A DNA stretch of 64,000 nt, taken from assembly GCF_023213175.1 (NCBI RefSeq), contig NZ_CP093312.1, forward strand, positions 992,001-1,056,000, read 5' to 3'. A program made the position numbers and the translations under genes. Within the stretch, counting starts at the first letter, position 1; every line of letters begins with the position of its first letter. Under the pieces are notes generated by a model. That model made no database searches. It was not told the origin of the DNA and saw nothing but the letters and a program-made list of their open reading frames with translations. This DNA is from Sulfurovum sp. XGS-02 (lineage in GTDB: Bacteria > Campylobacterota > Campylobacteria > Campylobacterales > Sulfurovaceae). Shown in pieces: positions 38,515 through 41,743 of the stretch.

Positions 38515-39126
38515 TCATGCTCTTGAGTATTCCATCATCAAGTTGAGTTGTTTATCATGGATCTTTGCAAGCAAGATAAGTGCTACAACAGCTCCAAACA
38601 GTGCATATCCCATATCTGACTGTGTATCCCACATATATCCCTGTGTTCCCAGGAAAGCTTCAGCATCTTCACCGACAGCAAGTGCTACCCACCACTCTAT
38701 CAGTTCATACAAGGCCGAAAATGCCAAAACAATGCTTAGAATGATGGTATTCAGCCATATTTTACTGCCTTGTACGATATGTTTGCGTATCAATATCTCC
38801 CTGGCTAGTATTGCAGGGATAAATCCTTGTGCAAAATGACCGACTTTATCATAATTGTTCCGATCTTGGTCAAAAAGCTCTTTGATCCAGTCAAAAAGAG
38901 GGACTTCTGCATAGGTATAGTGTCCGCCTACCATCAAAATAATCATATGAATTAATATGAGTATGTAGAGCAGGGAGGTTAACGGAAACTTCTTATAGGT
39001 TAAAAGTAAAATGACCAAACCTATGAAGACCGGAAACACTTCCAAAAACCATGTAAATGGATCTTTAGGCAAAGCTGCAGACCATATTAAAACAGGTATA
39101 AAGATACTTAACCAAAGATATTTCAT
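38515..39126 (-). CDS. DUF2238 (YjdF-like) membrane protein
   Basis: 203 aa, about six membrane segments (4-20, 28-44, 50-70, 96-115, 123-145, 172-190). Family blocks DKVGHFAQGFIPAILARE and LYELIEWWVALAVGEDAEAFLGTQGYMWDTQSDM match DUF2238. Function unknown. Last gene of a three-gene minus-strand operon after tetR and a methyltransferase; the 16-bp spacer carries a variant of the AT-rich spacer motif. Confidence 0.85.
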   Translation of the reverse strand: MKYLWLSIFIPVLIWSAALPKDPFTWFLEVFPVFIGLVILLLTYKKFPLTSLLYILILIHMIILMVGGHYTYAEVPLFDWIKELFDQDRNNYDKVGHFAQGFIPAILAREILIRKHIVQGSKIWLNTIILSIVLAFSALYELIEWWVALAVGEDAEAFLGTQGYMWDTQSDMGYALFGAVVALILLAKIHDKQLNLMMEYSRA

Positions 39127-39142
39127 TTAATATTCTCTAATA

Positions 39143-39751
39143 TTATTTAATCGCTGTCATTAAAAAAACAGTAAATTCGGCATGTGGCTTAGCTATTTTG
39201 TTGGCTAAACTGAAGGTCACATCCTTAAATCCTGCTTCTTGAGCATACTCAGCAAGCAAATGTCGATCAAAACCATAGTGAAAGACACCTTCATTATCAC
39301 TGTGGAAAGTACCATCTTCACTATCCAGGTCAGCAATAGCAATAAACCCATGCTCATCAAGCATCGTATAGAACTTTGCAAAGAGGGCAGGTATATCTTC
39401 CAAATGATGGATCGTCATGGATGAAATGATACCATCGAACTTTCTTTCCAGTGTATCTGTACTCAGATCTTTCTCTATCACTTCTGTATTACACGAGAAT
39501 TGACCACACTTATTTTGAAATTCCAAAAGCATAGAAGGTGAGTTGTCTACCGCTACAATTTTCTCTACATAGGGTGCGACAAAGTAGCTCAAAAGACCGG
39601 TACCCGCACCAAAATCCATCAATTCCATAGACTTGTTCAGTTTTATATTATCTACTATTAATTCCGCTATCCCTTTTGCATTCTGCACACGTTTGCTGTT
39701 CATATCCCACGATTTTGATTTTTTAGCAAAAAGATCTACTTTATTTTCCAT
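39143..39751 (-). CDS. class I SAM-dependent methyltransferase
   Basis: 202 aa. SAM-binding motif I LMDFGAGTGLLSYF (about 43-56), motif II IVAVDNSPSML, then EKDLST and FDGIISSMTIHHLEDIPALF, typical of the small-molecule methyltransferases. AAGGA is 6 nt before the ATG. It lies 29 bp after tetR, so it is likely a target of autoregulation. The substrate is unknown; a drug, quinone or lipid is possible. Confidence 0.87.
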   Translation of the reverse strand: MENKVDLFAKKSKSWDMNSKRVQNAKGIAELIVDNIKLNKSMELMDFGAGTGLLSYFVAPYVEKIVAVDNSPSMLLEFQNKCGQFSCNTEVIEKDLSTDTLERKFDGIISSMTIHHLEDIPALFAKFYTMLDEHGFIAIADLDSEDGTFHSDNEGVFHYGFDRHLLAEYAQEAGFKDVTFSLANKIAKPHAEFTVFLMTAIK

Positions 39752-39780: not shown

Positions 39781-40434
39781 CTAAAAAAGCGTCTCTTGTT
39801 TTTCCAGTTTTATATTATCCCAGAAGAAATCTACATGTTTCTCAAACATCGAAACAACAGAAGAGGTCGATTTTTTATCTAATTTTAGCAAAGAAACCTG
39901 CATTTGATAGAAAAACAGGGGAGAAAAGAACTCATTTGCCAATAAAAGAGGGTCTGAGGACTTGATCATCTCATCTTGCATCATCATAAAGAAGAGGCTT
40001 GAGAGCTTTTTAACGTTCTCCTGGTAGAAATACTCGTTGTATATCTCCCTGATCCGCTCATTTCTATAGATCTCCTGCATCAATAACTTTAAAAGCGCCT
40101 CATTTTGCCCGTCAAAGCCTATAAGCTTAAAAGTAGTGGCAATAGACATTAAGAGAGACTTTCCTTGTTTATGAAGCTCTGAGGCCTCTTTATCGCTAAA
40201 TATAGTGACTATCGCAGAAGAGGTAAGTTCACTTACGAGTGTTTCAAGGATCTCATCCTTGTTCTTAAAGTGGTTATACAGTGCACTTTGTTTCATATCC
40301 ATAGCACCCGCTATGTCTCTAACCGTTGTAGCCTTATAGCCTTTAGTTGAAAAGAGTTTCAGGGAAATTTTGAGTATTTTATCTTTGGTTTTACTTCCTT
40401 TAGTAGGGGAAGAACTAACGCTATGCTCGTTCAT
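39781..40434 (-). CDS. TetR/AcrR-family regulator
   Basis: 217 aa. N-terminal helix-turn-helix about residues 18-65: ILKISLKLFSTKGYKATTVRDIAGAMDMKQSALYNHFKNKDEIL, the standard TetR DNA-binding signature. The C-terminal ligand-binding and dimer domain is all-helical and not closely matched to a known subgroup. AAAGGAG precedes the ATG. Immediately upstream lie four evenly spaced palindromic operators and its own -10 box, pointing to autorepression of the tetR/methyltransferase/DUF2238 operon. Confidence 0.92.
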   Translation of the reverse strand: MNEHSVSSSPTKGSKTKDKILKISLKLFSTKGYKATTVRDIAGAMDMKQSALYNHFKNKDEILETLVSELTSSAIVTIFSDKEASELHKQGKSLLMSIATTFKLIGFDGQNEALLKLLMQEIYRNERIREIYNEYFYQENVKKLSSLFFMMMQDEMIKSSDPLLLANEFFSPLFFYQMQVSLLKLDKKSTSSVVSMFEKHVDFFWDNIKLEKQETLF

Positions 40435-40484
40435 TGTGGCTCCTTTAGTGATATTGTAGTGAACATTTGTTCATTTGTCAAGTA

Positions 40485-40490
40485 ATTATA
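40485..40490 (-). promoter_or_regulatory. -10 promoter of the tetR operon
   Basis: TATAAT on the minus strand, about 50 bp before the tetR ATG. Operator 1 would lie just downstream of the transcription start, suited to autorepression. Confidence 0.55.
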
Positions 40491-40517
40491 TTTCAATTAA
40501 AAGAACAACTGTTCATT

Positions 40518-40523
40518 TATAAT
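40518..40523 (+). promoter_or_regulatory. -10 box pointing away from tetR
   Basis: TATAAT directly after operator 2 on the + strand. No gene of normal size lies downstream before 41744; only a 12-codon ORF and a palindrome follow. Confidence 0.4.
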
Positions 40524-40599
40524 TTTTATCTTAGAACTAAATAAGAACAATCGTTCATTTATTTTCTTTTTGATTCACATTCATAAGAACACTTGTTCA

Positions 40600-41155
40600 T
40601 ATAAAACCAATCTACTTACTGGTACAGCGTGCTTTGCGAAGGATCAATGTATTCCTTATATCTATACAGAAATGAAATAAAGTAGGGGGCCTATTGTAAT
40701 ATTTATAAATATTACAATAGGCTCATCTTTTGCACCTCATCAACTTAACCTGTGGTTTTAGATGTTTGTTGTTACATCTTATGATTGATTTTCCATACAA
40801 TAGTTTTTATATTCTCATTACTGAAAAATTTTGATTTTGTAAAAATGTGGTTTTATGAAAAAGCGATGGAGTAATAAATTTTCTTTTTGTTAATAAAATC
40901 AGTTCGGATACAATTTTATAAGAGTAATGCAATTTGGATCTAAATTCAATTTGCACGGTTGAACAATAAAGTACAAAATGAGAAATAGTACACGAATATT
41001 AAATATTGGGTCTTATTGGTAAAAATAACTTTTTTAGATACCGTAAAACCTTTGCACTGATTTATGAAAGAGAAGAGAGTTTCTTTTTTAATAGAATTTA
41101 TATTATGTTAACCAAACTATATTATTACTCCAGAATCTATATTATTTGTGTATCT
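40600..41155. other. gene-free region downstream of the operator array
   Basis: No full-size gene supported in this 556-bp, strongly AT-rich stretch. It holds a 12-codon ORF at 40647-40685 (MYSLYLYRNEIK) with GAAGGA just upstream, then the 34-bp palindrome at 40689-40722. Beyond 40730 I see only AT-rich sequence without clear genes or repeats. Confidence 0.45.
40689..40722. repeat. 34-bp perfect palindrome
   Basis: Reads GCCTATTGTAATATTTA and then its exact reverse complement, with no loop bases left over. As RNA it would be a long hairpin, ending a transcript from the + strand promoter near 40518 after about 200 nt; TCATCTTTT follows. As DNA its half-sites TGTAATA/TATTACA recall the CmeR operator of Campylobacter, but with wider spacing. 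Confidence 0.65.
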
Positions 41156-41596
41156 CTACACAAATAACTCTTTGTTGTTTTGAGCAATCTTTTGAAGTTG
41201 TTCAAATGTCTTACTCTCTAAGGATCTTTGTTTGATCTTTGAAACCATACCTACTAGATGATCATAAGAATGAAAATTCACATTTTCTTTATATAGTGCT
41301 TTTGTAGTTAAATACTCTAAAACTTCTTTTCTACTGACAATATTTTCCCTTTCAAGATCTTGTATCAGTCCTTCAAGTAAATCATCATTTTCTTTACTAA
41401 TGAGGTTTTCAGAGATCTTATCTGCTGCATCTTCATCTAATCCTCTACTATATAATAATGAAGAAACACTCGATGAGACAGAATCATTTATACTTTGGTT
41501 ATATGAGACTGTCGTGAACACTGCATTTGCCATCACTGGATTCAAGGCCAAACCTGAAATAATAAGTGTCAAAGTGATAAAGTTTTGTTTATGCAT
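41156..41596 (-). CDS. hypothetical secreted helical protein
   Basis: 146 aa from ATG 41596, which has AAAGGA 6 nt upstream; the in-frame extension to 41674 is not needed. Signal peptide 1-24 (TLIISGLALNPVMANA). The mature part is helical and acidic (GLDEDAADKISENLISKENDDLLEGLIQDLE) without Cys. No family recognised. Divergent from the diguanylate cyclase gene. Confidence 0.65.
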   Translation of the reverse strand: MHKQNFITLTLIISGLALNPVMANAVFTTVSYNQSINDSVSSSVSSLLYSRGLDEDAADKISENLISKENDDLLEGLIQDLERENIVSRKEVLEYLTTKALYKENVNFHSYDHLVGMVSKIKQRSLESKTFEQLQKIAQNNKELFV

Positions 41597-41743
41597 TAAA
41601 AATCCTTTTACATATCTTAGTCTAATAAGGTTAATGGATTCTATTTTATTTCTATGTATACGCATATACCTCATCTATCTCTTATCCTTTGTAGAGAATT
41701 CTTATGGAAATATGCTATTATTTGATAAGGGAGAGGCAAAAAC

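Follow-up and report, generated by a model that had tools for sequence, protein, structure and literature searches.

A helically phased array of TetR-type operators beside dif in Sulfurovum sp. XGS-02 and other Campylobacterales

A TetR-family gene, an array of four palindromic operators and the chromosome-dimer resolution site dif, at which bacteria untangle doubled chromosomes, lie next to one another in Sulfurovum sp. XGS-02, within positions 992,001 to 1,056,000 of contig NZ_CP093312.1 (64,000 nucleotides, referred to as the window; coordinates count from its first base) of a closed 2.19-Mb Sulfurovum-type chromosome. The gene, designated tetR (39781..40434, minus strand; 217 amino acids), encodes the presumed array binder and is transcribed away from the array. 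Upstream of it stand four GAACNNNNGTTC palindromes with 12-bp cores, to which no strand is assigned: O1 (40461..40472, core GAACATTTGTTC), O2 (40503..40514, core GAACAACTGTTC), O3 (40545..40556, core GAACAATCGTTC) and the dif-proximal O4 (40587..40598, core GAACACTTGTTC), at steps of 42, 42 and 42 bp. The dif core AATAGAATTTATATTATGTTAA (41090..41111, plus strand) shares the intergenic gap 40435-41155 with the array, lies 491 bp from O4 and is located near the terminus, at 0.47 of the chromosome from dnaA. It is the single match in the window at up to 5 mismatches, and its 22 bp are identical to dif of Sulfurovum sp. NBC37-1 as printed in Table 2 of PMC2731167. A first-pass annotation, made from the sequence alone, had described four TetR-type operators at an exact 42-bp period. 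Palindromes and period were both confirmed; the starts it gave (40460, 40502, 40544 and 40586) each fall one base further out than the core, and it had missed dif as well as the position of O1 inside the tetR promoter.

Matches to GAACNNNNGTTC in the window were confined to O1-O4, against an expectation of 0.9 per 64 kb from Markov shuffles, and pairs within 60 bp were absent from all 200 shuffles. The pattern GAACNNNNGTTCAT with at most one mismatch gave 12 matches versus 5.1 expected, a count of 12 being reached in 0 of 100 shuffles. A two-site pattern was found in its true form in 88 of 175 same-family genomes and in its reversed control form in none. A chance origin of the array was ruled out by the shuffles and the reversed-pattern control. 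The information content across 14 orthologous arrays was 0.3-0.4 bit per column in the spacers versus about 1.65-1.7 in the sites; the spacer sequences are unrelated, and the array is therefore not a tandem duplication, as had been recognized on first reading. Outside the array, the home genome gave no match to the strict motif W-GAACR-NN-YGTTC-W (the genome-wide scan did not extend to TAAC variants), which makes a wide regulon for the tetR product unlikely, and this possibility was set aside. No known RNA or tRNA was found near the array.

The array was surveyed at 114 loci of families f1, f3, f4, f9, f16 and f18, the named relatives being mostly Sulfurovum and other Sulfurovaceae. Four sites per locus were present in 97 loci. 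Whole-turn distances accounted for 322 of the 323 spacings between neighbouring sites, namely 21-22 bp (13 spacings), 31-34 bp (135) and 41-45 bp (173), with one more at 64 bp; none of the 323 fell at 23-30, 35-40 or 46-63 bp. Spacings of 42/43 bp characterize f1 (Sulfurovaceae), those of 31-33 bp f3, f9, f16 and parts of f4 and f18, and those of 21/22 bp parts of f4 and f18, corresponding to 4, 3 and 2 helical turns, respectively, with spacers that diverge between loci. Mixed arrays also stay on whole turns (42-32-42 in L111, 33-31-22 in G039). Since the period shifts between lineages only by whole turns, the conserved property, as read from the spacings, is the helix face, not the distance. 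The earlier claim that all sites lie on one DNA face thus holds, with spacings that change among lineages in whole turns (22, 32 and 42 bp), and the comparison with related genomes that had been proposed along with it found array and phase recurring in several families. The centres of neighbouring sites can stand 2, 3 or 4 turns apart, which makes a fixed dimer-dimer contact the less probable option and favours a shared facing surface, for instance for a partner, or coherent bending. The phasing had been taken as a sign of cooperative assembly or looping; selection on phase stands, while dimer contact or looping is not established. As a side observation, L131, L132, L134, L111 and L124 mix spacings of 42/43 bp with spacings of 32-34 bp, close to whole turns, and represent natural intermediates between three and four turns. 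G160, of the same genus, has four phased site pairs rather than three, which points to either one additional site, the fifth, or another array.

Linkage to dif was counted upstream of tetR in the 110 loci with enough upstream sequence and downstream in 111 loci. In 85 of the 110, a dif or difH site was located upstream at a distance of no more than 2 kb, whereas downstream it was seen in 0 of the 111, and the orientation of the classical dif relative to tetR was constant in 71 of 72 cases. This linkage is present in both XerCD/dif and XerH/difH lineages, and the other neighbour genes of tetR are shuffled among loci. No array was found at the dif loci of genomes without this tetR (8 loci examined). 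According to the positions given in Carnoy and Roten 2009 (PMC2731167), dif of Sulfurovum NBC37-1 lies at 1,186,929 of 2,562,277 bp, compared with 1,187,525-1,187,662 for the array in the same genome (G024, 2,562,277 bp); difH of Nitratiruptor SB155-2 (G226, 1,877,931 bp) lies at 1,001,399, compared with 1,000,611-1,001,222 for tetR; and dif of Sulfurimonas denitrificans (G386, 2,201,561 bp) lies at 1,122,264, compared with 1,120,646-1,121,230 for tetR. These are the same dif sites as in the xerH-difH module described there; the TetR gene and the array are not mentioned in the accessible part of that paper. In the TetR tree each family forms one clade, with products down to about 40% identity between families, so that inheritance of the tetR locus, judged by this tree, is vertical. 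Horizontal arrival beside dif as a Xer-integrated element was ruled out, as the tree groups by family.

Because dif adjoins tetR, as seen from the published dif positions, tetR sits almost opposite dnaA on the chromosome, with a relative position of 0.45-0.50 in all but one of 28 genomes; the exception, G133 (0.28), consists of two contigs. A SUV3-like helicase gene from the same window, used as a control, is terminus-proximal in the home genome and origin-proximal (0.015-0.07) in f16. GC skew inside the window was too noisy for locating the terminus. Linkage within hundreds of bases, kept through reshuffled neighbourhoods, separate TetR clades and two Xer systems, is much stronger evidence of selection than terminus location.

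The tetR product has an N-terminal helix-turn-helix (HTH) domain (Pfam TetR_N, PF00440, 51.6 bits versus a cut-off of 24), and its predicted model (predicted local distance difference test, pLDDT, 86.7) has the all-helical TetR fold, with TetR regulators as the best PDB matches at template modelling (TM) scores of 0.5-0.7; within the TetR superfamily it is unexceptional. O1 lies exactly inside the -35/-10 spacer of the sigma-70 promoter predicted for tetR (40453..40481, minus strand; TTGACA, 17 bp, TACAAT; 11/12 consensus), and of 30 loci checked, 24 showed the layout of TTGAC, site and TATAAT. As O1 fills this spacer, autorepression of tetR is likely; it would also be expected from established TetR biology, since a TetR dimer on O1 would leave no room there for RNA polymerase. 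Array and gene occur together and the array overlaps the tetR promoter; the tetR product would be its binder.

The chief alternative to any role at dif is plain autoregulation, the position being simply inherited. The array would set tight or graded repression of an operon consisting of tetR, the S-adenosylmethionine-dependent methyltransferase gene that follows it (39143..39751, minus strand) and, third, the gene of a DUF2238 membrane protein (38515..39126, minus strand), and its place by dif would be ancestral. This account is possible if rather doubtful. The exact fit of O1 between -35 and -10, the typical TetR fold and the methyltransferase gene, which is kept after tetR in most Sulfurovaceae, agree with it (the DUF2238 gene occurs in about half of the Sulfurovaceae loci). 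In the other families the methyltransferase gene is not there; outside Sulfurovaceae the operon partners are gone, yet array, phase and dif link persist. The shuffling of the other neighbours and a dif link that spans XerCD/dif and XerH/difH lineages are further difficulties, and four sites are excessive for one gene's own promoter. The remark in the first-pass annotation that four phased sites exceed what is usual for one TetR regulator was right, and a regulation-only view is probably incomplete. Autoregulated TetR repressors with tandem operators resemble this system in HTH family, palindromic operators and promoter overlap, but differ from it in that the sites here number four, keep to whole turns across several families and are linked to dif.

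The preferred reading, on which confidence stands about level, is that a TetR repressing its own gene assembles, next to dif, a one-faced nucleoprotein platform whose probable role is terminus handling. A TetR-family dimer would bind each of O1-O4 on one DNA face; at O1 it would block its own promoter and so keep its own level low and constant. The full array would make up a platform fixed beside dif, acting on or marking the dif region. This platform may serve terminus handling at division by offering a surface for a partner (divisome, FtsK or Xer machinery) or, alternatively, may be an accessory complex that bends and insulates the DNA adjoining dif. Conserved positions in the C-terminal domain of the tetR product (G91, K103-L104, D108, E121, N125, R129, MMQ 151-153, D161-P162, E168-F169 and FEKH 197-200) suggest a kept ligand or partner surface.

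The platform could take the concrete form of a Xer accessory complex, in which, by analogy with ArgR/PepA at cer, the array would wrap or bend the DNA by dif and bias synapsis. Families f4 and f18 agree with this arrangement: a xer recombinase gene is followed by difH, array and tetR, with xer and tetR divergent, so that the array lies 46-88 bp from difH, between difH and tetR, with the recombinase gene on the opposite side (the recombinase was read in one locus per family and clusters with its counterparts in the others). In size and place the array also resembles the cer accessory sequences, which measure about 180 bp according to the accessible part of PMC5357621. In XerCD lineages, however, the gap varies and for the most part amounts to 250-1800 bp, many relatives carry dif without this TetR, and FtsK is the known control at dif; such a complex appears quite unlikely. 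The cer and psi systems (ColE1, pSC101; ArgR or ArcA with PepA) are alike in having a transcriptional regulator on 100-200 bp beside a Xer site. They differ from the present case, which has a chromosomal dif, a TetR-family protein and the regulator gene in cis, and in which an effect on recombination is hypothesized; for a cer-type accessory role, proximity alone is what the sequences display.

In a second concrete form of the platform, the TetR protein would connect terminus and divisome, on the model of SlmA or RefZ. RefZ recurs as a sub-threshold NCBIfam match at 42-58 bits, and the C-terminal domain is unusually conserved across families (e.g., FEKH, MMQ). Neither cut-off was reached: the home protein scored 58.2 bits versus 180 for RefZ (NF037937) and 26.6 bits versus 120 for SlmA (NF007015), and orthology to either was ruled out by these scores. 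Moreover, the accessible part of PMC6657595 places RefZ sites in the origin half and describes SlmA sites as avoiding the terminus. Divisome coupling in this form is accordingly rated as unlikely. RefZ with its binding motifs (RBM, Bacillus) and SlmA with its binding sites (SBS, Gammaproteobacteria) are alike in belonging to the TetR family and in that site positions matter for division; their sites are dispersed, whereas here there is a single array at dif.

Several observations weigh against a platform at dif in any form. No dif was recognized within 2 kb in 25 of the 110 loci; an extended search added three f16 loci with dif 2-4 kb away, and several other loci had none within about 6-8 kb. 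The gap between array and dif ranges from about 40 bp to 1.8 kb, a variation that speaks against a rigid complex shared with Xer in XerCD lineages. A tetR orthologue (E <= 1e-30) is present in 90 of 301 Campylobacterales genomes of at least 99% completeness; as many Campylobacterales are without this TetR, it is not required for dif recombination. The predicted fold resembles an ordinary ligand-sensing TetR. The control gene tgt is also fairly near the terminus (median 0.43), and its remaining in the terminus half counts in favour of plain autoregulation. Symmetric inversions tend to preserve the distance of a gene from the origin, and terminus location alone is therefore a weak argument.

MatP/matS of the enterobacterial Ter region, stated to be restricted, with ZapB, to enteric bacteria (PMC7188993, accessible part), is likewise a site-specific protein at the terminus. 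It differs in having the MatP fold and many dispersed sites, compared with a TetR fold and one array here, the strict motif being confined to the array in the home genome (TAAC variants lay outside that scan).

The intergenic gap holds further features. In Sulfurovaceae, a weakly conserved element (40613-40637) is found at a fixed distance beyond O4, with CCC at +19 to +21, G at +30 and TTT at +34 to +36 from the O4 end; its columns are about 55-88% conserved in 43 loci, a TATAAT-like stretch precedes it, and it may be the site of a second protein or a divergent transcript start; no strong palindrome stood out clearly within it. Between array and dif lies a terminator-like hairpin (40687-40724), a perfect 34-bp palindrome (40689-40722) followed by a T-rich tail on the plus strand. 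Its sequence is unique in the genome, close relatives differ at that place, and it may form the end of a candidate divergent small RNA running from O4 toward dif. An A/T-rich flank (41079-41089, AAAAAAGTA type, minus strand), common to many Sulfurovaceae dif sites, may belong to an extended dif or to an element next to it. Beyond dif, 41156-41674 encodes a 172-amino-acid protein of unknown family, with relatives near the same place in about 15 examined loci.

No mention of a TetR gene or an operator array at dif was found in the accessible parts of the open-licence literature, including dif/Xer work on these bacteria. The new part is the phased array linked to dif; the TetR protein itself is ordinary. 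That phasing and dif link recur in several families of deep-sea sulfur bacteria and their relatives suggests a protein complex, not described before, at the terminus of the chromosome. Somewhat tentatively, and short of an even call, the locus may be viewed as a dif-associated terminus system of Campylobacterota, in which a self-regulating TetR on a cis-linked phased array governs recombination by Xer or links the terminus with the machinery of division. Outside model organisms, little is known of the positioning and licensing of dif and the terminus. The series of two-, three- and four-turn arrays is a ready-made natural experiment on helical phase in TetR arrays. The cis-linked regulator gene, array and dif have been kept over several families and through both Xer systems, which points to a selected function, and this short DNA segment is a place where that function can be tested.
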